Shown: positions 8,595 through 33,342 of the stretch, one piece after another
How positions within the stretch are numbered: position 1 is the first letter of the stretch
Layout of the letters: each line of letters starts with the position of its first letter
Notes under the pieces: generated by a model
The model's database searches: none
The model's input: only the letters and a program-made list of their open reading frames with translations
Told to the model about the DNA's origin: nothing
DNA from: Anadara kagoshimensis
Taxonomy: Eukaryota; Mollusca; Bivalvia; Arcoida; Arcidae
Direction of reading: 5' to 3'
NCBI GenBank assembly: GCA_021292105.1
Contig: CM037869.1
Location: forward strand, 310,001-374,000
Length of the DNA stretch: 64,000 nucleotides
Translations under genes and position numbers: made by a program

Positions 8595-8739
8595 AGCAGA
8601 GATATCGGCTAAGGGGTTTAAATTACATATTATACCAGTTTTATATTTACAGCACTAGACGGCCGTTTCGGAATACAATTCCTCATCAGTAGTACTTGGA
8701 CCAAAATTATGAAACCAAAATTATTTTGAAGATGTTGAG
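8595..8739 (+). repeat. dispersed short repeat B, copy 2
   Basis: It differs from copy 1 at about two positions over 109 bp. It also shows an upstream extension (GATATCGGCTAA) shared with the distant third copy, so the true element is longer than copy 1 shows. Confidence 0.65.
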
Positions 8740-8892
8740 GATGTGCATTCTAGCTTTGGTATGTAACTGAATATTTTGCTGTATAATTCTTTTTTTTATA
8801 AACCTGCTGATTATCATTCACAATATTCCCGTTTCATTACTCCGAATGTTTTTACACTGCACTGTACGAAAGGGAAGTCAAATGTAGTCGAT

Positions 8893-11310
8893 AATCAAAA
8901 ACAAACATACTTATCCATTTCCGAATCACAATCCAGAAGCAAAGTAAAAACTTTGGAACTGACAAGTTAGGTTAGACACGTGAACTTCCACCAGGGAAGT
9001 GAGGCCGGATGCTCCGGAAGGGTAAGCACCTCCTGTTTAGCTAGCTACACCCGTCACGTGTGTAATCAAAATTGTGTGAAAGGAACATGGAACTATGAGA
9101 CGTCAAATATATCCAAGGCAATCCTGGACACAGAGACATCAAACTTATCAACAATACTGTGATGACGGCCATAAAACTTTTTGAGGGCCTTGATAAGCCT
9201 AGGCTTGCAATATCCCTGAGTCAACAATTTATTTGCAAGCAGCCTACTTCGTTGTACAAAGTCCCCGTAGTGGGAACAAGCTCTACCATAGCGTATTAAT
9301 TGGGAAACAAATACACCATAAGCAGGAGAAGCAGGTATATTGCTGCATAAAAAAGGAAAGTTGACAATAGAAAAATTGAAGTCATCACGTTTGTCATAAA
9401 GTTTCAAATGTAGCCTTTCTTGTGCGTCATAATTCAGGTATAAGTCTAAATATGAAGCAGAACTTGAGGAATCAGTCGTGTCTTTTATTTCAAGCTCACT
9501 AGGATAGATGACATTTACATAGTCTCCAAATTTAGGATTGTTAAGAGACAGAACGTCATCTATGTATCTGTATGTTGAGTTGAATGATTTGGCGACAGTT
9601 TTCTCTCCAGATTTAACAAGGTTCTGCATAAATTCTGCTTCGTAAGAATAAAGAAACAAATCAGCAAGCAATGGTGCACAGTTTGTACCCATTGGTATAC
9701 CGATTGTTTGCTGAAATACTATATTACCAAACACAACAAATATGTTATCTATCAAAAACTCCAACATTTTGTTGATGGTATCTTTAGTATATTTTTGTTT
9801 GGAATCCGTATGATGCTTGACAAAATAACCAGAATCACTGTTCAGCACCAGATATTTGTATCTTGGCTTACCGTTTTTGTAGAAGAAAGACAAGTGAATA
9901 ATTTCTTTAAGACGTTCTTTCAATTTAGAATGAGGGATTGTGGTGTATAGTGTAGAAAAATCAAATGTTTTTATACTTTTTACATGAGATAAAGTATTAG
10001 AAGCAAGATGTTCAAGTAATTCTTTAGAATTTTTTAGAATCCACATTTGGTTGATTCCAGATGTAGAATATACTTTTTCTGAATAAGACTGAAGACCATC
10101 TTTGACGATTGTCAAAATTTGTGTTAGAGTTACCGATAATGATTTAGTAGTACAATCAGATGAGCCTGCTATATATCTTTCCTTGTATGGATTTTTATGA
10201 AGTTTAGGAATCCAATACAAGTAAGGAAGATCAAGATCTTCCTCTTTAAGATTGATACCAAAAGACTCGAGAACTCCCCTATGGTTAGAAAGAACTTCAT
10301 CTTTGGTAAAATTAGTTCTAGAATATGCAGGGTTATTTGTTATACTATCTAAACCAAGCTCCTTAATAAGACATTCAAGGTAGAATCTCTTACAAACGAG
10401 AATAATGTTGTTGGAAGCCTTATCAGCTGGGACAACAACATATTTGTTGTGTATGTCTGTAAGAATTGCCTTGATTTCTGGATCCTTGAATACTGAAGAC
10501 GGTTTAGTACTCATAGACCCTTTAAGTTTGGCAATCCTAGTTTTAACGAAAGATCTAACAACCTTTATCTAGTCGGATAAGGTATCAAGCTCAACATCTT
10601 CTAATTTAGCCCAACGTCTGGCGTACTCTTCAACGGAATCCATGACAAGTCGGAAATTCTGTCCCCAAGTAAAAGGTTGAGCTTCTCTATCTTTAGGACC
10701 TTTTGAAAGTAAAAATCTTAATTTGGTGTTCTCAATTATATTGAGATCACCAGTTATTACATGTCCAGCCGGTCCATAAATATAGGGAGAAGACGAGCAA
10801 GAGCAAGTAAGTGGAGTAAAATTGTGAAAGTTTAAACACTGCAATGTTTGTTTATAATTAAATATTTTGGATGCAATAGGTTTATTGTAAGAGTAGGAAA
10901 CTAGAGGTGGATAATTAATTTTGAAATAAGCAGGAATTTTAGATTGGACTTGTTTATTTTGAAGAATATTGGAAATGTTTATAGCATCTATGCCTTTGTT
11001 AGCATAGTGTAACTTAAGATATTGGCGTTGACCATCGTTATCAATATCGTTTTCCCGAGCAGGTTTAAATAATCTGTTAAAAGCAATATCCATGATGATA
11101 GCCGTAAGCTTATATTCTGGTGTATTTGAATTTATAGTAGTTTTAGATATGCATTCTTCTTGTAACTGTCTAAGACGGGATAGTGGTATAGAGTAGAGTT
11201 TAGTTCGGATATGGTGTAATCCGAGAGGTTTCTGTAGGAATGGTAAAAGATTAAGAAAACTAACATCATGGATATTAAGTTTTAAAATGTAGCAGAGTAC
11301 CGCAACACCA
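8893..11310 (-). mobile_element. Penelope-like retroelement, nearly full length
   Basis: This minus-strand element has one reading frame from about 11310 to 9093, interrupted by a single amber stop at 10569-10571, followed by a tail to about 8893. The tail boundary is set by where similarity to the second copy at 11815 begins (AATCAAAAACAAACAT). No GIY-YIG endonuclease domain was seen, so placing it among Penelope-like elements rests on the reverse-transcriptase motifs alone. Terminal repeats of the Penelope type were not found. Confidence 0.6.
9093..11093 (-). pseudogene. Penelope-like reverse transcriptase ORF with one in-frame stop
   Basis: The reverse transcriptase copies element RNA into DNA at the target. 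The C-terminal 473-codon part (10514-9093) shows the palm motifs in order: DFSTLYTTIPH (motif A), GIPMGTNCAPLLADL (motif B), YRYIDDVLSLNN (motif C, with both catalytic Asp) and YLDLYL. The upstream part (11093-10569) is in the same frame, 18 codons before the next Met, and contains a CSCSSSPYIYGPAGH block, possibly metal-binding. A TAG at 10569-10571 is the only break. The frame is also open upstream of the Met at 11093 to about 11310, so the true N terminus is longer or truncated. The stop codon at 9093 lies at the edge of the shared repeat A tail. Confidence 0.7.
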
Positions 11311-17109: not shown

Positions 17110-17433
17110 TGTCGCGAATTGCGAACTTATTATATTTACTCCGATGGAGCAGTTTAGCTCCATTGGAGCATTTTAAGCTCCGGTAAAGTTTATTGCGTTT
17201 TTCACGTGTATGCACGAACATTTACAGTTTCTTGGGATACTCAGTAGTATATAAAGGACATGCTTCAGTTATTTAGGGGTTTTTTTGTTCTTGAATGTGA
17301 TGATGGGTTGTATACATGCGTACATGTTAACCAATGTTAGTGAATATAAAGATCAACAAAGATTTGTGCCATCGTGTGCTTTATTCTAATGTAGTTGGCA
17401 TATCAACTCAACAAACAAAAAGGGTCTGCTACA
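17110..17433 (+). repeat. BEL/Pao 5' LTR
   Basis: It starts TGTCGCGAATTGCG and ends GGGTCTGCTACA. The U3 has GGAGCA/TGCTCC-type motifs near its start and a TATATAAA box at 17248-17255. Confidence 0.85.
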
Positions 17434-17437
17434 TTAA

Positions 17438-17455
17438 TTGGTGCCGGAACCCGGG
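17438..17455 (+). promoter_or_regulatory. primer-binding site
   Basis: TGGTGCCGGAACCCGGGA begins four bases after the LTR. TGG matches the CCA end of a tRNA; the tRNA species is not assigned. Confidence 0.65.
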
Positions 17456-17497
17456 ACTAGTGAATTAACCAGGGAAACAAAGAAAAAGATTATAGAA

Positions 17498-17507
17498 ACA
17501 GGTAAGT
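17498..17507 (+). promoter_or_regulatory. consensus splice donor in the BEL/Pao leader
   Basis: ACAG|GTAAGT lies between the primer-binding site and the gag ATG at 17517. A leader donor would allow a spliced subgenomic RNA for the downstream zinc-finger genes. No acceptor was identified with confidence. Confidence 0.4.
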
Positions 17508-17516
17508 GTACTAACA

Positions 17517-18581
17517 ATGGCTTCAAACATTCCATACATCAAAGGTGTTAGAACAAGATAAAGAAACGCTATAGAAATATATGAAATAAAAGCGGGAAGA
17601 ACAATTTTACAAAATGCCGAGTATGTTGCTGTAGATACAGCAAAGGGTGAAGCAAAAAGTTTTATAGCCGGATTATCACTAACAAATGAGAACTATAATG
17701 TTGCCATTTCTATTCTACAAGAACGATTTGGAAATGTTCAGGAAGTTATAGATCTTCACTACAAACAGATGATCAATTTACAACCAGCAACTACGAGAAC
17801 GAGTAGTTTAAGGTTTCTAATGGACAAAGTAGACAAGAATCTCAGAAGTCTTCAAGTGCTTAAACAGGATGTTAACCAAGATGTGTTTGTTTCCATGTTG
17901 CGTTCAAAATTACCGGAAGAAGTACTTCTCCAGTTAGAGATTCAAAACGGAGCTAAAAAGTGGATAGTACTTAGCCTACGAGACTGTCTTAGCAAGTATG
18001 TCGTCGCTAGAGAAAAGGCAGAGAATCAGTTCCATGCGGAGTCCAAACAAAGTGGAAATAATTTCAATAGTCGACGTCAATACAACGCAAGGCCATTTCA
18101 CTCACCAAGTCAAAAAGGTCGTGAAATTACTGCAAATTATAAAAGTTCTGCTGGAGCCTTAACGACTACAGTAAAAGGCGGAAATGTGTCGCGTTATTCT
18201 GATAAGTGTCGATATTGTGAAAAATCTCATTGGAGTGATGAATGCCCTACGTACCGCACTATAGAAGCACGAAAAAAGAAATAAGTTGGTAGCTGTTTCA
18301 AATGTTTAAAGGTTGGTCATTCCTCGGAAAGATGTAAGCGGAGCAAATTGTGTTTTTATTGTGGTGAATTAAATTCACATCATTGAAGCTTGTGCCCAAA
18401 GAAATTCAAATTGAATAGTGCAAGTGTTAATTTCGTAGGAGAATGTTTGGAAATTCCTCAGGAAATTGATATCTTGGAAGATTGTAGTGGTAATTCTGGT
18501 TTATCAACACAGAGTGTAGATTCACAGGAAATTGTGCTTATTTCATCCGGAAATCGTCCTTATGCAAACAGCCAAAACTGA
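17517..18581 (+). pseudogene. BEL/Pao gag, three in-frame stops
   Basis: From the ATG at 17517 a single frame encodes a BEL-type Gag: an AKSFIAGLSLTNENYNVAI segment typical of the capsid-like DUF1759 region, then zinc knuckles CRYCEKSHWSDEC, CFKCLKVGHSSERC and a third pair CFYCGELNSHH...C. Stops interrupt at 17559-17561, 18282-18284 and 18384-18386, all in the same frame. Gag packages element RNA into particles; this copy could make only fragments. A frameshift near 18540 moves into the protease frame. Confidence 0.8.
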
Positions 18582-21033
18582 AGTTAAAGTTCAAGATAGT
18601 GCCACAAGTCACAAAATTAGACTTATTCTGGATTCAGGATCGCAGCGTTCTTATATTACGAAGGATTTAGCTGAAAGAATGTGTTTAAAGGGTGACCAAG
18701 ATGAAGAATTGAAATTAACGACATTTGGAAGTGAAAAACTAAAAGTGATTAAAACAACTGCCACACAACTGTGTATGAAGCTGAATAATAACAAATATAT
18801 GGACATTTCCGTTAATATTGTGCCTGTTATATGTGGCTCTATACAAAGAAAGAAAGTAAAAAGTGATTTGTTAAAGAACATTGACCATCTTGTCCATAGT
18901 TTAGATTTAGCAGATGATGTTCCTTTACACGATGATTCATCTACTGTTGACATTCTTATTGGGAATGATTATTACCTGGATCTTATTTTATCACAAAAGA
19001 TTGAAATTCAGCCTGGATTGTATTTACTAGCATCAAAGCTTGGATGGATACTTACTGGACGTACAAATGAGGTAACGGAGAACAACAACGATGTGAATAT
19101 GTTAATTCTCACACATGAAAATAACATTACAAAGACAAGTGTTTTTACAAATGTTGATCCAGTACTGCCTACCAAACCAGATCTAGAAGATTTCTGGAAT
19201 ATTGAAGCCATTGGTATAATGGACAAGTTGGACTAAGCTGACGACATTAAATCAATGAAAAACTTCCAGGATACGCTTGTATTCAAAGACGGAAGATACC
19301 AAGTAACATGGCCATGGAAGGAAGACATTCCTGACTTACCGGTAAATCGTGATCTGGCATTAGGTCGGCTTAAATCATCGGTGTCGAGAATGAAAAATTA
19401 ACTAAAAAATTGTTGCAGCAATATGATTCCATCATAAAAGAACAGCTAGCCAAAGGAGTAATAGAAAAGGTGGAACATTACAACAGTGCGAATCTATGTC
19501 ACTACATTCCACACCATGTTATTATTAATCCCTTGAAGCCGACTACTAAGCTTCGTATCGTTTATGATGCATCAGCTAAGACGAACAGTGTAAACAAAAG
19601 TTTAAATGAATGTTTATACAGAGGTCCAGTTATGCTACACAATCTTTGTGGCATATTACTTCGCTTTAGATTACACAAAGTAGCTGTTGTTGCTGATATT
19701 GAGAAGGCATTTCTTCAAATTGGTCTTCAGCCTAGTGAAAGAGATGTTACGCGATTCATTTGGTTAAAAGACTATGAAAAGGAAATAGTTGACAAGACAA
19801 ATCTTCAAGAATATCGTTTCTGTCGTGTTCCATTCGGAGTGATTTCAAGTCCATTCCTGCTTGGAGCAACTATAGAGAGTCATATGGATTCATTCAACAA
19901 TGACCTTTCCAGTAAGTTGAAAGGAAACATTTATGTGGATAATTTAATCACGGGAACAGATTCGTCGAATGAAGCCATTCAACTCTACATTGAAACAAAA
20001 TCAATGTTCAAAGAAGCTTCAATGAACATCCGAGAGTGGATATCTAACAGCGAGGAAGTAAATAGGTTTATACCAACCGACGACAAGGCAACTAGTACAA
20101 CAATAAAAAGTTCTGGGATATGTGTGGAATGCTGAAAACGATAGTATTGCTTTGAAACCTCCAGATGAGATTATTTCTACAGATAAAGTGACCAAAAGAT
20201 GTGTTTTGAAGGAAATAGCATCTGTGTTTGATCCGCTGGGATTGTTTTCACCTATATTGTTACGAGGCAAATTACTTTTACAAGAGACATGGAAGATGGG
20301 CCTTCATTGGGATGACGTATTAGAAGATAGTATGATACAGAATTGGATGTCTATTAAATCTGACCTAAATCATATTTACAATTATCAAGTTCCACGATAT
20401 ATTGAAACAGATGGTTGTAATGGAGTAAAATACACCATACTTTCATTTTGTGATGCAAGTGCATATTCAGCTGTGGTGTATTTACATCAACAGAGCGAGA
20501 ATTACACAAAGGTTAGCTTGATATTTTCGAAGACTCGACTTGCTCCTGTAAAACAGATGACGATTCCTAGACTAGAACTCATGGCTGTACTGATTGGTGT
20601 GAGATGCATTGCCTTTGTGAAAAATCAACTTAGATTGCTTGTGGAAAAGGTATTTGTTTGGACTGATTCCCAGTGTGTTTTGAAATGGATTTCCTCAAAG
20701 AAAGATTTATCGGTATTTGTGAAAAACAGGGTATCTGAGATTAAGACACATGACATTGAATTCTGCTACGTCAACACAAAAGAAAATCCTGCTGACATTG
20801 CTTCTCGCGGAACAACTTTACAGTTACTCGATAGAAATCAACTTTGGTGGTTTGGTTCTCAGTGGCTGTTAAAATCCATAGGTGAATGGAAGTGTAGTAT
20901 ACAGAAGACAGATAGCGAGGAAGAAAGCAACTATGAATCTGAAATGAAAAAGTCTCAACAAATAACTTCTGTACATCTATCTGGAGAAAGTTGTAAATTC
21001 ATTCGGACATGCACCATTCGGATTACAGTGTGA
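18532..21033 (+). pseudogene. BEL/Pao pol: protease, reverse transcriptase, RNase H (broken)
   Basis: The protease shows LILDSGSQRSYI (catalytic D-S-G). After stops at 19234-19236 and near 19398 and a frameshift, the reverse transcriptase follows (19410-20135) with ADIEKAFLQI, VPFGVISSPFLL and YVDNLI. The usual YVDD second Asp is Asn here, a G-to-A change. A further frameshift near 20125 enters the connection/RNase H part (20122-21033) with FDPLGLFSPI, FCDASAYS, PRLELMAV and WTDSQCVL, the order expected for Pao-type elements. At least three frame breaks make it non-autonomous. Confidence 0.85.
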
Positions 21034-21160
21034 AGACTATTCATCAGTGTCAAAATTAATACGATAACCGCGTTTGCATTACGGTTTATCAACAAACTAA
21101 AAAAGGCATGCAAGGACAGTGGAGTTCTTACTACTACAGAATTATGTTTGCTGAAAACAT

Positions 21161-22639
21161 GTGGTTATTACATATACAGAAAAAGAATTATCAGAACTGT
21201 TCATGAAGAAACCTAACAAAGAGGCAAACAATATGAAGGTTCAGTTAGGATTATTCAAAGATCAAGATGGAATTTTACGATGCAAGGGAAGAATGGAACA
21301 TGCGCATCTTAGTGAAGCTACAAGGTTTCCAATTCTGGTTCCAAAAAGCGAACGATTCACGAGATTATTAATAAAAAGAGCACATCAACAAAACCTACAC
21401 AGTGGTGTTTCTCAAACCTTGAGTCAAGTAAGGTACAGATATTGGATTCCTAAAGGGCGTGCCACAGTTAGACAAGTCCTGAATGATTGCTTAATTTGCC
21501 GCAGACATGAAGGAGGGCCTTATAAAATGCCACCAATGTCTCCATTGCCGGTTACTCGTCTTTCAGAGGCGCCAGCATTTGCTAGAACTGGCCTGGATTA
21601 TTTTGGACCATTGTTTGTGAAATGTTTTGGAGAAAAGTCTAAAGTGTGGGTGTGTTTGTTTACATGTTTGGTCACACGTGCAATACACTTGGAGATGGTA
21701 GAAGACATGACTACAGAAAAGTTTTTGTTGTGCTTCAGAAGATTTATATCACAGCGTGGTACACCGTTAGAAATTATTAGTGATAATGCTTCACAGTTCA
21801 AGACAGCTAATAATACTTTAGATTCACTCTGGAGCGAAGTTACTCTAAACAAAGAAGTGCAATCCTATGTGTCTGAAGTTGGAGTAACATGGAAATTCAT
21901 AGTGGAAATGGCTCCATTGATGGGTGGATTTTATGAAAGACTTGTCGGAATTGTGAAACGAGCATTTAGGAAAAGTTTAGGTAGAACACTGTATACTGTT
22001 ATTCAAATGCAGACTATAATAAAGGAAATTGAAGCAGTTGTTAATGCAAGGCCATTAGTGTATGTTGGTGATGACCTGAATTCTACAATAACGCTGACTC
22101 CTCAGCATTTCCTTACGCTAAATCCAAAGACAGGCATCCCGGATATAGAACTTGATATACGTGATCCTCTTTATCGTCCGTGTAATATTCTTGCTGACGA
22201 ATTACTTGAGAAATCGAAAAAAGGACAAAAGCTACTAGATTCATTCTGGAAAATATGGCGCGATGAGTATTTGTTAAGTATTAGAGAAAGACAACAAACA
22301 AAACTAAAATCTAAAAGAGTTCAAGCTTCTTCTTCTCCGAATGTGGGTGATGTGGTGATCATAAAAGATGACTTACCAAGAGGATGTTGGAAACTTGGAA
22401 AGATAATCGATCTGATACATAGTAGTGACCAATTGATACGCTCGGCCAAAGTACAGACGTCATCAGGACGTGTTATTGGTAGACCCTTAAATCTACTCTA
22501 TCCAATAGAATGTCAACGTTCTACAGACAACACGGACATTACTATTGAAAGTAAATATCCTTTACCTATCAAGAGTGAAAAACGCGTAAAAAGGAAAGCT
22601 GCGGCAACTGCAATGGAAAAAATTAAACATATGGACTAA
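21161..22639 (+). CDS. BEL/Pao integrase domain
   Basis: An open frame of about 490 codons covers the integrase. It has an N-terminal zinc-binding H..H..C..C region (RAHQQNLHSG...CLICRRH) and a catalytic D-D-E core (LDYFGPL, IISDNASQF, MGGFYERLVG). The C-terminal region is of DUF5641 type (VGDVVIIKDD, PRGCWKLGKI, RPLNLLYPIE). Integrase inserts the DNA copy into host chromatin. All three acidic residues are present. It would normally be the C-terminal part of Pol; here it is cut off by breaks at 21031-21160, so it has no start of its own. Confidence 0.85.
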   Translation: MVITYTEKELSELFMKKPNKEANNMKVQLGLFKDQDGILRCKGRMEHAHLSEATRFPILVPKSERFTRLLIKRAHQQNLHSGVSQTLSQVRYRYWIPKGRATVRQVLNDCLICRRHEGGPYKMPPMSPLPVTRLSEAPAFARTGLDYFGPLFVKCFGEKSKVWVCLFTCLVTRAIHLEMVEDMTTEKFLLCFRRFISQRGTPLEIISDNASQFKTANNTLDSLWSEVTLNKEVQSYVSEVGVTWKFIVEMAPLMGGFYERLVGIVKRAFRKSLGRTLYTVIQMQTIIKEIEAVVNARPLVYVGDDLNSTITLTPQHFLTLNPKTGIPDIELDIRDPLYRPCNILADELLEKSKKGQKLLDSFWKIWRDEYLLSIRERQQTKLKSKRVQASSSPNVGDVVIIKDDLPRGCWKLGKIIDLIHSSDQLIRSAKVQTSSGRVIGRPLNLLYPIECQRSTDNTDITIESKYPLPIKSEKRVKRKAAATAMEKIKHMD

Positions 22640-22811
22640 ATAGAGTAAAAACTGTTGTTACCATGTTAAAAATACTGTTATGAGCAATTTAATGTTTTAT
22701 ACAAATATTACACTAGTTTCCATTAACCTTAAAGTACAGTACAGCGTTACATAAGTTATATGGACCTTAAAAATCCGTGTAAAGATCACCGTGAATTAGA
22801 TACCAATCACC
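22640..22811 (+). other. spacer between integrase and the U3-like promoter
   Basis: About 170 bp of non-coding DNA after the integrase stop. No polypurine tract or coding motif was recognised. Confidence 0.3.
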
Positions 22812-22948
22812 GGCGGAGCTATTATCTATCTAACGGAGCAAGCTGTTTTTTTCATGTGTACCGTTGTTGCACGAGCAACTTTTACAAAAAATTTATATAA
22901 AAAGATTCACGAGGGTGTTACTCGCACATAAGAATTATCGAAGTGATC
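22812..22948 (+). promoter_or_regulatory. U3-like promoter upstream of zinc-finger gene copy 1
   Basis: It resembles the element's LTR U3 in layout and sequence: GGAGC(A/T) motifs, then GTTTTT(TT)CA(C/T)GTGTA, then GCACGA..AC..TTTACA, then a TATATAA box at 22894-22900 about 50 bp before the ATG. The LTR equivalent has TATATAAA at 17248. This looks like a diverged second U3 serving as a private promoter. Function is inferred from similarity. Confidence 0.5.
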
Positions 22949-23584
22949 ATGGAAAGATATATTTGTGGTACGTGTAACAGGGGGTATAAACATAAGAAGA
23001 ATTTAAAGCGACATATTACAGAAAGGCACACAGATGTTAAACATTGGAAATGTGTTGTGGACGGGTGCAAGTCAAAATTCATTCGAAGAGGTTATCTATC
23101 TAAACATTTGATTTTGAACCATGGTTATAGCAGTGCGGTTGCTAAAAACGCTGCTGTGAAAGCCCCTCGTGGTGACATACAACCTCAATCATCGTATTAT
23201 GAAGACATCAGTGAAGATGAAACAATTTTCGATTTATTTGAGGATATAAGTTCTAGTGTCCCGGAAGATTTTAATGCCGATGACTTTAATTTGGAATATT
23301 TGGACGACAATCAAGAGGTTCAAGAAAGGGAAAACAACACTAGCGAAGAAATCACGGGTGAAACGGAAGAAATGCGGACAGAAGATAATGAAAGTACGGA
23401 CAAACGCAAAGAAGATGATGCTGATAGTGTTATAGTTATATCAGATAGTGAAGATGAACTCATAAATAATAATGCTGTTGAACTGTCTTCGTCACGATCT
23501 GTGACCCAAATATTTATGTTAACAATTACACGCAAAGTAAGGTTTGTTAATGATGTAGAAATTGTGGACAATATTGAAATATGA
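22949..23584 (+). CDS. retrotransposon-borne C2H2 zinc-finger protein, copy 1
   Basis: An intact gene for 211 residues, with ATG at 22949 in a good context (ATCATGG). Two C2H2 fingers lie at the N terminus: C6-x2-C9-x12-H22-x4-H27 and C35-x4-C40-x12-H53-x4-H58, with a basic first finger (YKHKKNLKRH). Residues about 85-170 are strongly acidic. VIVI at 161-164 followed by SDSEDE is a classic SUMO-interaction-type motif. The C terminus alternates hydrophobic and charged residues. It has no signal peptide or membrane segment, so it is not an envelope. It sits between integrase and the 3' LTR. A nuclear DNA-binding, SUMO-linked regulator is the natural inference; the target is unknown. Confidence 0.8.
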   Translation: MERYICGTCNRGYKHKKNLKRHITERHTDVKHWKCVVDGCKSKFIRRGYLSKHLILNHGYSSAVAKNAAVKAPRGDIQPQSSYYEDISEDETIFDLFEDISSSVPEDFNADDFNLEYLDDNQEVQERENNTSEEITGETEEMRTEDNESTDKRKEDDADSVIVISDSEDELINNNAVELSSSRSVTQIFMLTITRKVRFVNDVEIVDNIEI

Positions 23585-23629
23585 ATTTAATGATTAATTT
23601 TTCAATCTTCCCAACTTTGTGTGTGGGAG

Positions 23630-23672
23630 TGTCGCGAATTGCGAACTTATTATATTTACTCCAATGGAGCAG
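23630..23672 (+). repeat. 43-bp orphan LTR start between the two zinc-finger genes
   Basis: The first 43 bases of the LTR (TGTCGCGAATTGCG... to ATGGAGCAG) follow copy 1 and then join the start of the second U3-like promoter at a shared GGAGCA-like motif. This marks the duplication junction. Confidence 0.8.
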
Positions 23673-23827
23673 GCGGAGCTATTATCTATCTAACGGAGCA
23701 ATTGTTAGTATAACGGAGCAAGCTGTTTTTTCATGTGTACCGTTGTTGCACGAGCAACTTTTACAAAAAATTTATATAAAAAGATTCACGAGGGTGTTAC
23801 TCGCACATAAGAATTATCGAAGTGATC
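23672..23827 (+). promoter_or_regulatory. U3-like promoter upstream of zinc-finger gene copy 2
   Basis: It equals the copy 1 promoter except for one fewer T in the T-run and a 20-bp insertion that repeats a TAACGGAGCA motif. The TATATAA box is at about 23773. Confidence 0.5.
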
Positions 23828-24463
23828 ATGGAAAGATATATTTGTGGTACGTGTAACAGGGGGTATAAACATAAGAAGAATTTAAAGCGACATATTACAG
23901 AAAGGCACACAGATGTTAAACATTGGAAATGTGTTGTGGACGGGTGCAAGTCAAAATTCATTCGAAGAGGTTATCTATCTAAACATTTGATTTTGAACCA
24001 TGGTTATAGCAGTGCGGTTGCTAAAAACGCTGCTGTGAAAGCCCCTCGTGGTGACATACAACCTCAATCATCGTATTATGAAGACATCAGTGAAGATGAA
24101 ACAACTTTCGATTTATTTGAGGATATAAGTTCTAGTGTCCCGGAAGATTTTAATGCCGATGACTTTAATTTGGAATATTTGGACGACAATCAAGAGGTTC
24201 AAACAAGGGAAAACAACACTAGCGAAGAAATCACGGGTGAAACGGAAGAAATGCGGACAGAAGATAATGAAAGTACGGACAAACGCAAAGAAGATGATGC
24301 TGATAGTGTTATAGTTATATCAGATAGTGAAGATGAACTCATAAATAATAATGCTGTTGAACTGTCTTCGTCACGATCTGTGACCCAAATAATTATGTTA
24401 ACAATTACACGCAAAGTTAGGTTTGTTAATGATGTAGAAATTGTGGACAATATTGAAATATGA
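23828..24463 (+). CDS. retrotransposon-borne C2H2 zinc-finger protein, copy 2
   Basis: An intact 211-residue gene, 879 bp downstream of copy 1 and differing at about six bases. Three changes alter residues (I to T, E to T and F to I, all outside the fingers). Both C2H2 fingers, the acidic region and the VIVISDSEDE motif are unchanged. Two clean reading frames sit in an element whose gag and RT are broken, so either the duplication is recent or the accessory gene was kept. The gene is followed by about 45 bp and then the 3' LTR. As with copy 1, there is no env-like feature. Confidence 0.8.
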   Translation: MERYICGTCNRGYKHKKNLKRHITERHTDVKHWKCVVDGCKSKFIRRGYLSKHLILNHGYSSAVAKNAAVKAPRGDIQPQSSYYEDISEDETTFDLFEDISSSVPEDFNADDFNLEYLDDNQEVQTRENNTSEEITGETEEMRTEDNESTDKRKEDDADSVIVISDSEDELINNNAVELSSSRSVTQIIMLTITRKVRFVNDVEIVDNIEI

Positions 24464-24508
24464 ATTTAATGATTAATTTTTCAATCTTCCCAACTTTGTG
24501 TGTGGGAG

Positions 24509-24832
24509 TGTCGCGAATTGCGAACTTATTATATTTACTCCGATGGAGCAGTTTAGCTCCATTGGAGCATTTTAAGCTCCGGTAAAGTTTATTACGTTTT
24601 TCACGTGTATGCACGAACATTTACAGTTTTTTGGGATACTCAGTAGTATATAAAGGACATACTTCAGTTATTTAGGGTTTTTTTTGTTCTTGAATGTGAT
24701 GATGGATTGTATACATGTGTACATGTTAACCAATGTTAGTGAATATAAAGATCATGAAAGATTTGTGTCATCGTGTGCTTTATTCTAATGTAGTTGGCAT
24801 ATCAACTCAACAAACAAAAAGGGTCTGCTACA
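24509..24832 (+). repeat. BEL/Pao 3' LTR
   Basis: 324 bp, same ends as the 5' LTR. The preceding GTGTGGGAG is a weak polypurine tract. GTATA follows (24833-24837). Confidence 0.85.
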
Positions 24833-24950: not shown

Positions 24951-26717
24951 ATGACTTCCGAGTCCATTCTTAAATATTTTCAACCAAAAACGCAAGATTT
25001 GTTGTTGGATACTAGTTTTACAAGCGTTGACCAACGTACAGCTGAAATTTGCAATTCCGAGCTAGATAAAGTGTATTCTCCTAGTAATAGTGCTAAAAAG
25101 AGAGGAAATTATCAAATTTTATCACCAGCTGACAAGGCAGAAATTGGACGATATGCTTCTCAGCATTCCACACCACAAACGATAGCACATTTTAAAGATC
25201 GTTTTGAGCTTAAACAAACTTCCTTCAGAAACTTTAATAGAAAATATTTGAGTGAAGTGTCACGTAAAAGAAAATTATTTGACAACGATTGTGATTCCAA
25301 TTGTGAAGTGTTTGAATTAAAACCACTTAAACGCGACAGGCCGCTTTTACTTGGTAATGAACTTGACATTAAGGTTCAAATTTTAATTAATGAACTTAGA
25401 AATAAAGGAGGAAACATAAATACTAGAATCGTCAGACCTCTTGCCAAAGGTGTAATTTTTATCACAGGACAGGAACCTTTTGTGTGACAATGGGGGAGGA
25501 ATTGATATCACTAGAGACTGGGCACTTTCAATAATGAAACGCATGAATTTAGTTAAGAGACGTGGTAATAGTACTGCAAAACCAGAAATCAAGGACTTTG
25601 ATGTCAAAAAGACAAAATTTCTGAATGATATAAAAGAACTTGTTCAAAAACATAACATCCCTCCTGAACTTGTGATCAATTGGGACCACACAGGAATCCA
25701 TTTAGTCCCCGTCAGTCGTTGGACCATGGCCGAAAAAGGTAGTGACAAGGTGGAAATCATTGGTTTGGATGATAAACGGGAAATTACAGGTAAGTAATAA
25801 TAAATAAATAAATAAATATATATCCTGGTGTCATTGTTGTACAAACAACTGGACGCTCACATGTATGTTTTATTATAAACATAAAGATCTTTATTTTAAG
25901 TAGATTTAATAATTGATAGAAACTATAAATTATATTTACCTGTATTGACCTAATAAATAAACAAATAAATATCCTAGTGGCATTGTTGTACAAACAACCG
26001 TTACAAGCACCTGTTACAATTACCGGCACGGGACAACCTAATCAATATCTAACAGTACAGCTATTGATGTAATGTTTCTAATCATGTTTAACCACAGACA
26101 AGATTTTGTAAGAAACATACCCTATTCGAAAAGTAATCACACCTTGAATTGATTATATTAGAGGTGTCATGGCTGGATCTTTAAGTGGCGACATTCTACC
26201 ACCGCAAGTAATATACCAAAGGAAAACGGAACAATGTCATGCCAAATTCAGATTTCCCACCAACTGGCATATAACGCATACAGAAAATCACTTGGCTAAT
26301 ACTGCAACCTCCTATCAATACGTAAACAACATCATCACCCCATATGTAATTGATATTAAAGATAAACTTGATTTGCCTATAGCCCAGAAATCATTAATTA
26401 TTTTGGATTTCTTCAGTGTCCAGTTAGGCGAGGACTTTAGAAATTTCATGTTGTCAAAAAATCTCGTGTATGTTTACGTGCCTGCCAACTGCACATCAAA
26501 ACTTCAACCCATGGATTTAAGTGTACAGAAGTGTGTGAAGGATCGAATGCGGGAGGCATTTGAAGACCACTATGCAGAAAAGGTTTCGAAAAGTTTACAG
26601 GAAAAGTCCGAGGTCAAAATTGACCTAACTATGACGACTTTGAAACCATTAAGTGCCAAGTGGCTTGTTTCAGCCATTGATTATCTCAAAGCAAACCCAA
26701 AAAATTTTTATCATTAA
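24951..26717 (+). pseudogene. pogo-type DDE_1 transposase, frameshifted, with a probable intron
   Basis: The ATG at 24951 starts a protein with an N-terminal helix-turn-helix region (LSPADKAEIGRYASQHSTP...). A one-base frameshift near 25478 leads into 25480-25797, with the first catalytic Asp in VINWDHTGIH. An interval of about 370 bp with GTAAGT at its start and an AG at its end follows. Then 26169-26717 carries the rest: SLSGDILPPQVIYQ, LIILDFFSVQ (second Asp; the usual LDNFS has N changed to F) and NCTSKLQPMDLSVQ (third Asp, 35 residues later). The transposase cuts and pastes the element by its inverted repeats. The frameshift makes this copy inactive. Confidence 0.75.
25805..26001 (+). 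repeat. direct repeat pair in the transposase intron
   Basis: Two similar segments of about 45 bp (AAATAAATAT.TCCT(G/A)GTG..ATTGTTGTACAAACAAC) lie at about 25805-25851 and 25953-26001. Confidence 0.6.
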
Positions 26718-27525: not shown

Positions 27526-29283
27526 ATGGGTACTCAAAAAACTTCTTCAAATAGTTCTAAAAGATTAAGATCAGAAAGTGATGAAGAATCTGATGTCTTT
27601 GTTGCTTGGGCGAGGTATGTCGTAGTGCAATCAACTACTGACCAGCCTCCTTCGGGAAATTAACTTTATCATAAAAATAATTTTTTTATCATATATAACC
27701 CAGTGTTTTATTTATAAATTGTCTGTGATATAACTGGTTTTTATCAGTTTAGCAATAGTTTTATTAAAAATGTATTTGTTGTTATTTTTAATTTTACATT
27801 TTAATACTTTGTGTTATTGATACTATTGTATCTTTTACTTTTTCTAGCCGCGATTAGCTGCAATAATGCTGATGCGGCTTTAAACAATAACTCACTCACT
27901 CACTCACTACTGACCAGCCTTTAAAAATTAGCCCGTTTATTATTAGCAAAGCTGTACAGGGTATTGCAGGTGATGTAGCCGGAATCAAAAAGTTACGTTC
28001 TGGCTCTCTCCTAATTGAATGTTCAAAACGGCAACAATCAACTAATTTGCTTGCTACAAAACATTTTGCCAACTTTTCAGTTAAAGTTGTACCACATGAG
28101 TCACTAAATACAAGTAAAGGTATCATCTGTGATCGAGAGCGTTCAATGAACGACATGAGCGAGGCAGAAATTGCTGCTGAGCTTGCATCACAGGGAGTTG
28201 TCAATGTAAGACGTTTCTCCGATTTAAAAAGGATGGTTCTTTTATACCTTCCAATACATACCTTCTGACCTTCTCTATGTCAGCCCCTCCAAAGGGAATT
28301 AAAGCTGGCTATTATAATATCAAAGTGAAAACATTTATTCCAAGGCCACTGAGATGTTAAATGTCAAAAGTTTGGTCATGGATCAAAGGCATGCAAATCT
28401 GTTGATGTATGTTGCCGTTGTGGTACAAAGGGTCATCACATTACTGATTGTACAAACACTATTAAATATGTTAACTGTAAAGAAAACCACATGGCTTCTT
28501 CCAGGGATTGTTCCATTTGGAAGAGGGAGTATGAAATAAATAAAATTAAAGTAAATAAAAACAACATTTCCTGAAGCTAGAAAACTTTACTCCCAGACAC
28601 AAAGTGCATCACAAGCCTCATATGCTTCAGTAGCCACGGGTTCCTCGAAGAAGTTTATTTCTGTTGCTTGTCAGACAGACTTTTCGTCTCTTAATGACAA
28701 AAGTTCAACACCAGCAACAAAGACATCTTCATCAACTAAAAATAATGTTACACAAAGTTCATCTACTAACAGTAAAGACACAAAGACTAGTTCAAATAGT
28801 AGTATAAATAATTCAAAATCAACTAAACAAAATGTTTTAAACAAACAGAAACTTAAAGTTCGGGAGCAAAAATCTGCTCCAGCTTCCTCCGATGCAGAAG
28901 CTTTATCTCAAAGTAACACTGCATCACAACCAATAACAAAGGAAGCAGATTCTGGAAAGGTTAAACCTGATCCAGTTAAAAAACAAAATAAAGTAAAATC
29001 AGGAAAGAATGAACAAGTATATTTTGTTCCTGATAAAAGTCCCGAAGCATTACTTCGGAAAAATCCAATATTGGATTCCCCCAATAGATATGAAGCATTG
29101 GAAGTTGATATAAGTTCATCTGATGAAAATGCTTCGACATATACTGACAAGGATGGTTTTACCCAAGTACGTAAGGGGCGTAATAATCGACGGCGTGATT
29201 CTGGACGCCATCGTTCTGAAGACTGCGACATGGATATATCCCAGTCGCATATATCCCCAGTACGCCCTCCTAATAATGGATAA
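27526..29283 (+). pseudogene. LINE ORF1 (RNA-binding, zinc-knuckle protein), broken
   Basis: The ATG at 27526 starts MGTQKTSSNSSKRLRSESD. It is interrupted by a 257-bp LINE insertion at 27649-27905 and resumes through a region like an RNA-recognition fold (LLIECSKRQQSTNLL..., VVPHESLNTSKGI). A frameshifted section around 28360-28510 encodes Cys/His knuckles (VCCRCGTKGHHITDC and a following pair). A Ser/Thr-rich linker leads to GFTQVRKGRNNRRRDSG. ORF1 proteins coat LINE RNA. The stop TAA at 29281-29283 overlaps the ORF2 ATG at 29276-29278, an arrangement compatible with reinitiation. Confidence 0.7.
27649..27905 (+). mobile_element. 257-bp LINE 3'-end insertion with 15-bp target duplication
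   Basis: It is flanked by ACTACTGACCAGCCT at 27634-27648 and 27906-27920. The insert matches the LINE's own 3' end from just before the ORF2 stop through the CTCA tail. Confidence 0.9.
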
Positions 29284-32200
29284 TCCTAAAATAATACAAT
29301 GGAATTGCAGAGGTTTTAAAAATAATATTGTTGAATTAGCAGGTTTAGCACAAGATTTTAACCCAGTTGCATTTTGTCTTCAAGAAACTTATATTAAAGA
29401 ATCGGACAATGAAATCAAATTTCGTCATTACAAACCATATCACTTTTGTTCTCCTAATGCTGATAGAGCTTCGGGAGGTTCTTCAATTTTTATTCGAAAT
29501 GGAATAATTCATAGTCACATATCTCTTAATACCAATCTCCAAGCAGTTGCAGTTCGTATAACGCTACAGGTAACTATAACATTATGCTCGATATATATTC
29601 CTCCAGCATCAGCATTATCTCTTACCGACATACAAAATTTGGTTGAACAGTTACCTAAACCATTTCTTTTAGTTGGTGATTTTAATGGACACAACCCTCT
29701 TTGAGGAAGTTCGCGCCTTGATAATAAAGGCAGAATAATAGAGAACTTGTTGTCTTACAATGATCTATGTATATTAAATGACGGGTCTAAAACATTTCTG
29801 TCTGATGCAACTGGTATTTATTCAGCTTTAGACTTGTCGCTATTGGATCCTTATATTTTAAATGATTTTTCCTGGAAAGTCCATGATGATCGTTGTGGAA
29901 GCGATCATTTTCTAATTATAATGGAATATACATCCGGGTCAAATGATCTTTCTATTCCTAGATGGAACTTTGCAAAAGCTGATTGGAATCAGTTTCGAAA
30001 TCTCTGCGCGGAAAAGATTACTTTCGAGAGATTTGAAAATGAAGCTGATAAAATTCAGAGTTTTACCAATGTTCTTATTGAAATTGCTAATAATTCCTAA
30101 AACCTCTGCTAATCCTCGTATCCATACACCATGGTACAACGAGGAATACAAACAAGCTAGGAAAAGTCGAAAACAAGTCGAGAGACAATTTAATAATTCT
30201 CCTACACAAAACAACTTGCAGTTAGTCCGTTTATTTCGAGCAAAGGCTCGAAGAACAGCTAAAAAGTGCAACAGAGATTCTTGGAGAAAATATGTCTCTA
30301 AGATCAATTCTCGCACTCCATTAAATAAAGTTTGGAATATGGTGCGCAAAATAAAAGGCAAAGGTTTAGATTCTGTTAAACATCTTAAAGTAAATGATAC
30401 AATTTTAACATCTGAAAAAGATATTTCCAACAAAATAGCCGAGACGATATCTAAAAATTCGTCATCAGTTAATTATACATCAGAATTCCAGAAACATAAA
30501 ACATACAAGAAAAGAATAAATTATCTTTTAAATCTGATAATCCGAGGATTACAATGATATATTTTCATTTGAAGAACTTCAAAATGCTCTTTCGAAGGCA
30601 CATGATACGGCAGTTGGTCCTGATGTGCACTATAACTCCTTAAACATTTGCCTTCTTCTTGTCTTTCTACTCTGTTAGATATATTTAATGATATTTGCAG
30701 AGTGATAATTTTCCATCATCTTGGCACAAAGCTGTCATTATTCCTATTCCAAAGCCAGGAAGGATCCTCTGATCCATCTAACTATAGGCCTATTGCCTTA
30801 ACTAGCTGCGTTTGTAAAACCATGGAAAGGATGATCAATAATAGACTCGTTTATTATCTTGAGTCTAACAATCTTCTCTCGCATATTCAGTGTGGTTTTA
30901 GGCGTAACAGAAGTACTTTAGATCACTTAGTTCGCCTTGAATCATTTATTAAAAATGCCTTTATAAATAAACAACATGCGGTTTCTATATTCTTTGACCT
31001 AGAAAAGGCATATGATACCACTTGGAAATATGGCATCCTTAAAGATCTTCGATATGGGTCTTAGGGGTCATACTCCAATTTTATTAAAAACTTTCTCGAA
31101 AATCGAGAATTCCAAGTTCGGTTGGGATCAACCCTCTCGGATGTCTTCGACCAAGAGATGGGTGTCGCAAGATAATATTTTATCTGTAACTCTTTTTAGC
31201 ATTAAAATAAATAGCTTAGCTAAAGTTTCAAACAATAGCATAGATGGATCTCTCTTTGTTGATGACTTTGGCATCTCCTGTAGAGGGAAACGTATGCAGC
31301 TATTGAAAGGCAACTTCAAATTTGCCTCAACAAAATACAAAAATGGTCATTAGAAAACGGTTTTAAGTTTTCAAAAACTAAAACTTCCTGTATCCATTTC
31401 TGCAATAAACGCAAAATGCATAATGACCCTGAACTTTATATCAATGGCAGTATTATTAAAGTCGTAAAAAAGCTAAGTTTTTAGGAATCTTATTCGATTC
31501 CAAATTATCTTTTATTTCCCATATTAAATATAATTGTTTTATCATATATAATCCAGTGTTTTATTTATAAAGTCTCTGTGATATAACTGGTTTTTATCAG
31601 TTTAGCAATAGTTTTATTAAAAATTTATTTGTTATTATTTTTAATTTTGTATTTTAATACGTTTTGTTATTGATACTATTGTATCTTACTTTTTCTAGCC
31701 GCAAATAGCTGCAATAATGCTGATGCGGCTTTAAACAATAACTCACTCACTCACTTAAAACTTCCTGTATCCATTTCTGCAATAAACGCAAAATGCATAC
31801 TGACCCTGAACTTTATATCAATGGCAGTATTATTAAAGTCGTAAAAGAAGCTAAGTTTTTAGGAATCTTATTCGATTCCAAATTTTCTTTTATTCCCCAG
31901 ATTAAAAGCCTCAAGGCTAAATGTCTTAAGGCATTAGATATTTTAAAGGTTTAATCCAATGCACACTGGGGTGGTGATCAACCAACATTACTGTTTTTAT
32001 ACAGGTCACTTATTAGATCTAAACTGGATTACGGGTCTATTATTTATGGATCTGCCCGTAAATCATATTTAAAAGACCTTGATAAAATTCATCACCAAGG
32101 TCTACGAATATGAATATGTTTGGGAGCTTTTAAAACGTCTCCAATTGATAGTTTATACGTGGAAGCTAATGAACCCCCATTGCATTTAAGGCGTACTAAG

Positions 32201-33342
32201 TTATCTCTGCAATATGCCACAAAATTATTTGCAAATCCATCAAACCCGGTATTTCATTGTGTTTTTAATCCTCCTTATCAAGAGCTCTACAACAAAAAGG
32301 TTAATGCTATTGCACCTTTAGAGGAATGTAATTTAAAACTAGATCTTATTAAAAACACAAATTAACAGATAATCTACCTTGGCTTCTTGATAAACCAGAA
32401 GTCAATTTGGATTTAACAAACGATAAAAACTCAGAAACAAGCCAAGATGTTTATCAACAGGAATTTGCTCTAATTAAAGATAGATATAGTCGTTTGATTC
32501 CTCCAATTATTAGAGAGGAACTACGACAGTGGCATTCAATTTATACTGATGGATCAAAAACTGCTGGTCGGGTATCAGCGGCCGCAGTTATTGGAGATGA
32601 AACAATAAGTATTCGTCTTCCAAATGAAAGCTCCATATTCACAGCTGAGGCTAAAGCAATGTTGCTTGCTTTACAGTTTGTTTCAAAATCGCCTCATAAC
32701 AATTTTATTATATGCTCTGACTCTTTATCTGTCCTTCTAGCAATAAAGAACAGGAAGTTTGATCACCCTCTCATCAGTGAAATTCTGCAATTGCATACTT
32801 CAATTACATATGCAGTTTCAGATTTTAATAAAATAATACATTATTGTTGGTTGCCTAGCCATGTTGGTATTACAGGCAACACAAAAGCCGATTCAGCTGC
32901 TAAAGCATCATTGTCTAAAAATAAAACTTCTTGCTTCATTCCGCATACTGATTTAAAACCATTGATATACAATTATATCAATGATCAATGGTCAAGTCAT
33001 TGGAATAGCCAAGAACATAATAAATTATTTTCAGTTCAGCCTTGTCGGAGATTTACATCTTTGTCCCAGAACAATAGGCATGACAGTATTGTTCTTCGGC
33101 GCTGTAGAATCGGCCATAGTTATTTTACACATTCTTTTATATTGAAGGGAGAACAACCTCCCCAATGTATCCCTTGTCAAGGTCAACAATCTATCCAACA
33201 CATTTTGCTGGATTGTGTTGACTTTGCACATACAAGGGATACTTTTTATTCAGCATTATCAATGCAAGATCTTTTTAGTAATGTCACTGGACATCAAATT
33301 TTAAACTTCCTTCGGAAAATTAACTTGTATCATAAAATATAA
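29276..33342 (+). pseudogene. LINE ORF2: endonuclease, reverse transcriptase, RNase H (broken)
   Basis: The AP-type endonuclease comes first: IIQWNCRGFK, CLQETYI, LLVGDFNGHNPL, where a TGA at about 29702 replaces the usual Trp, and GSDHFLI near 29910. The reverse transcriptase follows after frameshifts near 30100 and 30560: SNYRPIALTSCVCKTMERM, GFRRNRSTLDHL, FFDLEKAYDT, FVDDFGIS (catalytic F.DD). A 227-bp insertion at 31529-31755 breaks the next part. RNase H is intact in frame at 32407-33342: IYTDGSKTAGR, FTAEAKAMLLAL, CSDSLSVLLA, WLPSHVGITGNTKAD, then a Cys-rich end (CIPCQGQQSIQHILLDC). ORF2 nicks the target and primes cDNA synthesis. Several lesions rule out activity. Confidence 0.8.
31529..31755 (+). 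mobile_element. 227-bp LINE 3'-UTR insertion with ~150-bp flanking duplication
   Basis: The insert starts at TATAATTGTTTTATC of the LINE 3' UTR and ends in CACTCACTCACT. The 150 bp on its left (31379-31528) is repeated on its right (31756-31906) with only a few differences. Confidence 0.85.

Follow-up and report, generated by a model that had tools for sequence, protein, structure and literature searches.

Within the window, i.e., the 64,000 nucleotides of Anadara kagoshimensis DNA that were analysed (C13:310001-374000; the positions given below count from its first letter and refer to the + strand unless stated otherwise), a BEL/Pao retrotransposon spans positions 17110-24832, and between its integrase and its 3' LTR a pair of genes is located whose products combine C2H2 zinc fingers with a SIM-like motif. 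The element is bounded by LTRs of 324 bp each, a 5' LTR (17110-17433, TGT...ACA) and, as its direct repeat, a 3' LTR (24509-24832), which differ at 9/324 positions (10/325 when one flanking base is included). The gcata just before the 5' LTR and the gtata following the 3' LTR resemble a 5-bp target duplication with one mismatch. Next to the LTR pair and this short duplication, membership in BEL/Pao is documented by the order protease-RT-RNase H-integrase together with Peptidase_A17, DUF1758 and DUF5641, whereby the RNase H match stays below the cutoff. Both gag and pol are in broken frames. They comprise a gag fragment (17769-18284) with a weak DUF1759 match below cutoff, the protease region (18532-19236, DUF1758), the reverse transcriptase (19410-20135, RVT_1), the Peptidase_A17/RNase H region (20122-21033, RNase H below cutoff) and the integrase (21161-22639; Integrase_H2C2, rve and DUF5641, with Peptidase_A17 upstream). 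The U3 part of the 5' LTR harbors a cluster of four GGAGC/GCTCC sites forming two inverted pairs (17146-17181, no strand assigned), and the TATATAAA of the LTR promoter follows at 17248-17255; the corresponding features of the 3' LTR are the GGAGC/GCTCC cluster at 24545-24580 and TATATAAA at 24647. A GTAAGT (17502-17507), which may serve as splice donor, lies in the interval between primer-binding site and gag. An Rfam scan of the window gave no match at gathering scores. Adjoining the 3' LTR, a group of ORFs (24951-26717) includes one with a DDE_1 match (26169-26717), a DNA transposon remnant which we take to be pogo/Tigger-like, and elsewhere in the window a reverse transcriptase ORF of 473 codons (9093-10514, - strand; RVT_1 below cutoff), presumably Penelope-like, and a LINE-like remnant with endonuclease and RNase H domains (29123-33342) were observed.

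Copy 1 (ATG at 22949, ending at 23584) and copy 2 (ATG at 23828, ending at 24463) of the zinc-finger gene encode 211 amino acids each, and the coordinates and domains bear out the original prediction of two 211-codon reading frames between a BEL/Pao integrase and the 3' LTR. The copies differ at 5/636 nucleotides and in 3 amino acids, and the pair is one recent 879-bp tandem duplication whose unit comprises the gene, DNA preceding it and the initial 43 nt of the LTR; this duplicated LTR head is found at 23630-23672. The two predicted C2H2 fingers were recovered as well, finger 1 matching PF00096 at 26.2 bits as compared to a Pfam cutoff of 25.2 and finger 2 being identified by pattern and seen also in the structural model of a relative (P0011), which together make the product a C2H2 zinc-finger protein. 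Likewise present are the acidic region, including an acidic/hydrophobic stretch (DDFNLEYLDD, 23279-23308) that is kept in many relatives and may act like an activation domain, and the VIVISDSEDE motif, which is SIM-like (23429-23458 in copy 1). In Pfam searches at E up to 0.1, zinc-finger families only were matched and no envelope glycoprotein. The description of the genes as intact did not hold, as both share a 14-nt deletion relative to the copies L009 and L011 introduced below, which truncates the C-terminus and removes about the 10 last residues of the C-terminal box of the family. That gag and pol are broken while the gene frames are clean is correct; the open frame of 633 nt is, however, weak evidence of selection because the LTRs are merely 9/324 apart.

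When the genome (1.115 Gb, 36 contigs) was searched by tblastn with the window protein, at least three further near copies were found, namely L009 on C8 (97%), L010 on C6 (95%) and L011 on C10 (88%, broken), these counts being lower bounds as 150 of the 367 tblastn candidates were scored. In all three, the gene lies between BEL integrase and LTR, i.e., independent copies possess the pol-to-3' LTR reading frame that characterizes accessory genes of the ORF3 kind, and it is open in two and broken in one. The gene of L009 comprises 222 codons and ends with MDRDFYEFND within the C-terminal box of the family, that of L010 reads 232 codons with an altered C-terminus owing to a separate 3' lesion, and that of L011, which retains the stretch deleted from the window genes, is split by several kb and contains stops. 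The L009 element is flanked by taagg (1368-1372) and tgagg (8737-8741), and the single mismatch of this 5-bp duplication falls on position 2, as in the window copy. Each of the three other near copies holds a single gene, and the tandem arrangement, predicted to be a trait of the element, is therefore not a family trait. What did endure is the assignment of the gene to this BEL lineage as a regular part; as an accessory gene it is genuine and recurs within one BEL/Pao lineage.

A single-sequence database search with the window protein identified one relative, 47% identical, whose profile retrieved 30 database relatives at E up to 1 (P0029 and P0030 at 3e-4 or worse), and a second, wider profile search identified 5 proteins at E 1e-8 or better. 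Those relatives for which organism names are given come from Mercenaria and Mytilus. Two C2H2 fingers, an EDISEDD-like block and a C-terminal box (TQTFVLT..R..Y.NG) are common to the full-length relatives, and so, apart from some exceptions, is an RGD; an acidic DFxLDYLDD-like stretch is found in many of them, and the SIM-like motif in many but not all. Among 17 aligned database relatives, 31-47% identical, the fingers and the RGD/EDISEDD block are mostly retained, and so is the C-terminal box where it is not cut short. The prediction of a nuclear-type C2H2 protein with a SIM-like motif, the latter common to many relatives, is supported. The finger pattern fits 19 of 35 sequences, the other 16 being excluded from the counts of helix contacts, and in these 19 the predicted contacts are N at +3 of finger 1 (18), R at +6 of finger 1 (19) and R at -1 of finger 2 (17). 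By the usual C2H2 recognition code we assume that N, R and R at these positions specify a GGA core; conservation extends over much of each helix, beyond the contact positions, which counts against a reading based on contacts. The AlphaFold model of P0011 (mean pLDDT 65.2) shows the fingers with confidence and a helix at 61-70; its middle is disordered, and a beta-hairpin lies towards the C-terminus (248-284), whereby 6 of the 7 ten-residue blocks of residues 1-70 average above 90 pLDDT and the hairpin has block means of 84-91 over 251-280 and lower ones at its ends. By alignment to P0011, the window copies are devoid of the end of the second hairpin strand. A fold search with this model gave no match at E 0.001 or better, the best ones being C2H2 proteins. 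The two-finger Tramtrack structure 2drp was matched by sequence and weakly by fold (E 0.013); Tramtrack-type domains share the two C2H2 fingers with the family, but the similarity is generic for C2H2 domains and many other C2H2 proteins match equally well or better. Among virus contigs, 73 stretches fit a pattern, none of which is a relative.

In the genome search, the six rows representing BEL copies were followed by eight further stretches (L012-L019), seven of which also match the RNase H-integrase part of the Ty3/Gypsy element L016, with L019 being a near copy of L014. The original prediction had supposed a captured host-type gene; no host source was found, and what was found instead are these 7/8 next genome matches beside a Gypsy integrase. 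Still lower rows comprise one more Gypsy context (L027), two stretches with no Gypsy match (L020 and L021) and two with multi-finger host-type ORFs (L022 and L023), the context having been examined for 19 of the 25 rows. We take L016 to be a Gypsy element from its domain order and its Tf2-like integrase end. Across 555 columns its two LTRs show a 98.7% match, stretches of 300 and 173 bp being identical, and the start codon of its finger gene, 260 codons long, overlaps the pol stop as ATGA. Open genes near-identical to it are located twice on C3 and on C11 (contexts L015, L017 and L027). In L012, L013 and L018 the finger ORF is in frame with upstream sequence without a stop, in L012 from the integrase end onwards. 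Three further Gypsy copies (L024-L026) are devoid of most of the integrase core and contain a 37-40% identical finger gene with stops; that these three share the loss of the integrase core yet retain gag, RT and finger gene raises the possibility that they move in trans. The fingers of the BEL and the Gypsy genes align at E 3.9e-12, and in a tree of the fingers the Gypsy genes separate with modest support (88/84) and long branches, one host row grouping with the BEL side. Homology between the BEL and L016-type genes beyond the fingers was considered and left unsupported by profile comparison, as 6 of 100 column shuffles were as good for full tails and 33 of 100 for C-termini (P0001, P0020, P0022, P0026-P0030 and rows lacking a pattern match being omitted and the C-terminal set comprising 13 rows). 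At a minimum, the finger genes of BEL and Gypsy elements are of one kind and occupy a matching position. On the minus strand of L013, at about 720-850 and 1440-1580, many palindromic GGGC..GCCC-like words occur near the 3' end, with similar ones before the TATA, which possibly represent the cognate motif of that finger type. L020 (2082-2759, - strand) and L021 (6983-7564) contain a repeated family of two-finger C2H2 ORFs in stretches with no Gypsy match, which possibly belongs to another mobile element.

As for selection, the ratio dN/dS among near copies, by which the original prediction was to be judged, was mostly mildly below 1 and once above, and such near copies offer little power. Besides the pair formed by the two window genes themselves (0.98), 8 of 9 pairs gave 0.48-0.74 and one gave 2.47 on 11 differences. 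In particular, window copy 1 gave 0.73 with L009, 0.48 with L010 and 0.59 with the broken L011; window copy 2 gave 2.47, 0.74 and 0.72 respectively; and L009-L010, L009-L011 and L010-L011 gave 0.58, 0.62 and 0.60. In these calculations gaps, stop codons and the final portion of L010 were omitted, and the L011 pairs include misframed ends. For pieces of pol, the comparison of window and L009 ranged from 0.33 to 1.25. The more distant Gypsy pair L016-L024 has dN 0.51 and dS 2.8, the latter being saturated, and together with the conservation among the 17 relatives these sequence comparisons speak for constraint over longer times.

Upstream of each window gene a putative internal promoter was identified, that of copy 1 (22814-22948) with GGAGC at 22815 and 22835 and TATATAAA at 22894, and that of copy 2 (23673-23827) with CGGAGC at 23674, 23694 and 23714 and TATATAAA at 23773. 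The arrangement in the BEL lineage is thus two inverted GGAGC pairs in U3 and three direct CGGAGC repeats with 20-bp spacing before the gene, copy 1 having one repeat fewer than copy 2, L009, L010 and L011. In L009, GCTCC/GGAGC is the commonest of the 5-mers with at least two sites in both U3 and the gene region preceding the TATA, its four U3 and three internal-promoter sites amounting to 7 as compared to 0.13 expected. Measured against 133.6 kb and before correction for the number of words, the Poisson P of GGAGC is 6.6e-7 in U3, the lowest of all, and 3.2e-5 in the internal promoter, where the overlapping words CGGAGC (8.7e-8) and CGGAG (1.3e-5) lie below it. In L009, L010 and L011, clusters of at least three sites in 45 bp occur in U3 as well as in the internal promoter; the window element has them in U3 and before gene copy 2, and 270,098 background bases (BEL copies, L034 and L035 excluded) contain none. 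Across four copies, 1 of 58 columns varies from TATA to ATG as compared to 17 of 171 between pol and the motif, and the part from motif to TATA varies in 35 of 102 columns, the copy-1 deletion included. A shared descent of U3 and internal promoter was also considered, for which no convincing alignment was obtained; as 21 and 16 of 1000 shuffles reach the scores, no claim of common descent is made. In the Gypsy elements, L016 has two inverted GGAGC in the 60 bp before its TATA (0.36% of random windows have at least two), L024-L026 have one (3.2% have at least one), and L012/L013, a third type of carrier, have none in these 60 bp. The LTRs of L016 and L024 gave no blastn match to each other. GTAAGT is kept in L009, and splicing is therefore a second possible expression route, with a spliced leader mRNA as the possible substitute for the internal promoter; the GGAGC sites, in turn, might be used by a host factor.

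An integrase search placed the closest further BEL family at 57% identity, with three places of equal score. This one sister family was examined downstream of pol in two copies (L034 on C9 and L035 on C17). L035 is a partial copy at 53% and is 99% like L034 over 346 shared bp. In L034 the pol stop (165-167) is followed by 69 bp and then by an LTR starting TGTCGCAAATT, whose ends were judged from the window LTR and from the point where L034 and L035 diverge. No finger gene is located downstream of pol at either place, and no GGAGC within the sister LTR (237-463 of L034); one GGAGC 12 bp past the LTR end of L034 counts against a clear-cut absence. Gene and LTR motif were therefore either both gained in the window lineage or both lost in the sister.

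The GGAGC clusters in both putative promoters suggest that the protein controls the activity of the element itself. The suggested mechanism assumes that the accessory gene, placed between integrase and 3' LTR together with a putative TATA promoter of its own, would give rise to a small nuclear transcription regulator, whose two fingers would recognise sites of the GGAGC type, which at 5-6 bp have the length that two fingers should cover, both in the LTR and in the promoter of the gene itself. The acidic region would then recruit the transcription machinery, the SIM would recruit or displace SUMO-modified chromatin proteins, and the protein would activate or protect its own element, which would result in a feedback loop. 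Such a self-regulating transcription factor, with the element's LTR and its own gene as targets in the manner of foamy-virus Tas or plant VANC, is the preferred reading, held tentatively and at slightly short of an even chance. The broader model appears doubtful as a whole, namely that bivalve BEL/Pao and Ty3/Gypsy elements carry self-encoded C2H2 regulators, often SIM-bearing, of GGAGC-type LTR clusters, in BEL with their own promoter, which would form a Tas- or VANC-like loop and would have been passed between the superfamilies or repeatedly invented. As described in the available text of PMC3798896, foamy-virus Tas (Bel-1) binds response elements in an internal promoter and then in the LTR, yielding a positive feedback loop, and shares with the present case the location of its gene towards the 3' end, downstream of an internal promoter, which is putative here. 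Foamy viruses are, however, retroviruses with env, and the likeness is a functional analogy for which no homology is claimed. VANC is encoded by the VANDAL transposons of Arabidopsis and, in the part of PMC5735166 available, is connected with short clustered motifs in their own non-coding regions; the likeness consists of an element-encoded protein and clustered short motifs in the same element, whereas binding is documented for VANC and would be predicted from motif clusters here.

Judged by the sequences, self-regulation at the LTR is better evidenced than the steering of integration or the escape from SUMO-dependent silencing that the original prediction had considered. An anti-silencing factor, whose SIM and acidic region would bind SUMO-modified repressors and so block SUMO-dependent heterochromatin on the element, activating it or not, is considered unlikely, and would be compatible with a self-regulating factor, as the two are not exclusive. 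The SIM-like motif of the window protein and of the matching place in many relatives (judged by eye and by a loose pattern) is in line with it; 11 of 35 sequences, some of them short, are nevertheless devoid of a SIM even by the loose pattern, and SIM-like motifs are found in many nuclear proteins. VANC provides, to the extent covered by the available text, a precedent for motif-guided anti-silencing (PMC5735166). For integration targeting, whereby the fingers would anchor integrase or the preintegration complex at particular chromatin in the way of a chromodomain, it can be argued that the gene follows integrase in the carriers examined and that the finger ORF of L012, L013 and L018 is in frame with the sequence preceding it, which in L012 is the integrase end. 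The BEL-lineage gene is, however, separate and starts about 310 nt downstream of integrase, and L024-L026 retain their gene despite the loss of most of the integrase core, so that this reading is regarded as very improbable.

The same cis evidence as for an activator would apply to a protein that binds the LTR as a self-limiting repressor or superinfection-immunity factor and keeps copy number low, and few gene places were found (at least four, counting the window); a low copy number has, however, many causes, and the DFELDYLDD-like stretch presumably resembles an activation domain, leaving a repressor with a small probability. Similarly small is the probability of a passenger, i.e., a zinc-finger fragment that was captured but does nothing for the element, with the common GGAGC being a host-factor site. 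A passenger would be consistent with the window copies having lost their C-terminus and L010 having an altered one, with the gene being broken in L011 and with the weak dN/dS among near copies. Against it speak the 17 database relatives of 31-47% identity, which mostly keep fingers, RGD/EDISEDD block and, unless cut short, the C-terminal box, and the Gypsy pair L016 and L024 (dN 0.51 at a saturated dS of 2.8).

Third reading frames as such are known from other elements. In bdelloid rotifers, LTR retrotransposons possess non-env third ORFs of the same kinds across retroelement types, which differ from the present gene in encoding GDSL esterases, DEDDy exonucleases, coiled-coil and membrane proteins, the available part of that report (PMC5408684) containing no mention of zinc finger or C2H2. 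Plant LTR retrotransposons possess extra ORFs between pol and 3' LTR, some with nuclear products, thought to be regulatory (PMC7264820, whose main text, as available, likewise does not mention zinc finger or C2H2), and the accessible portions of PMC6338049 and PMC12440569 provide further precedents. The terms "zinc finger" and "C2H2" are absent from the available main texts of the mollusc surveys PMC6238403 and PMC8905726 and of the annelid survey PMC8220671. Among the open-access matches listed, judged by the text available for each, none describes a C2H2 accessory gene for BEL or Gypsy elements.

The usual view of retrotransposons is that they are passively acted upon by the zinc-finger and SUMO pathways of the host. 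If the preferred reading of a self-regulating factor holds true, an element-encoded zinc-finger regulator with matching promoter sites would open the control of transcription by elements to direct tests in animals, and the occurrence of such a regulator in different superfamilies would mean that a regulator module has either been exchanged between them or originated repeatedly.
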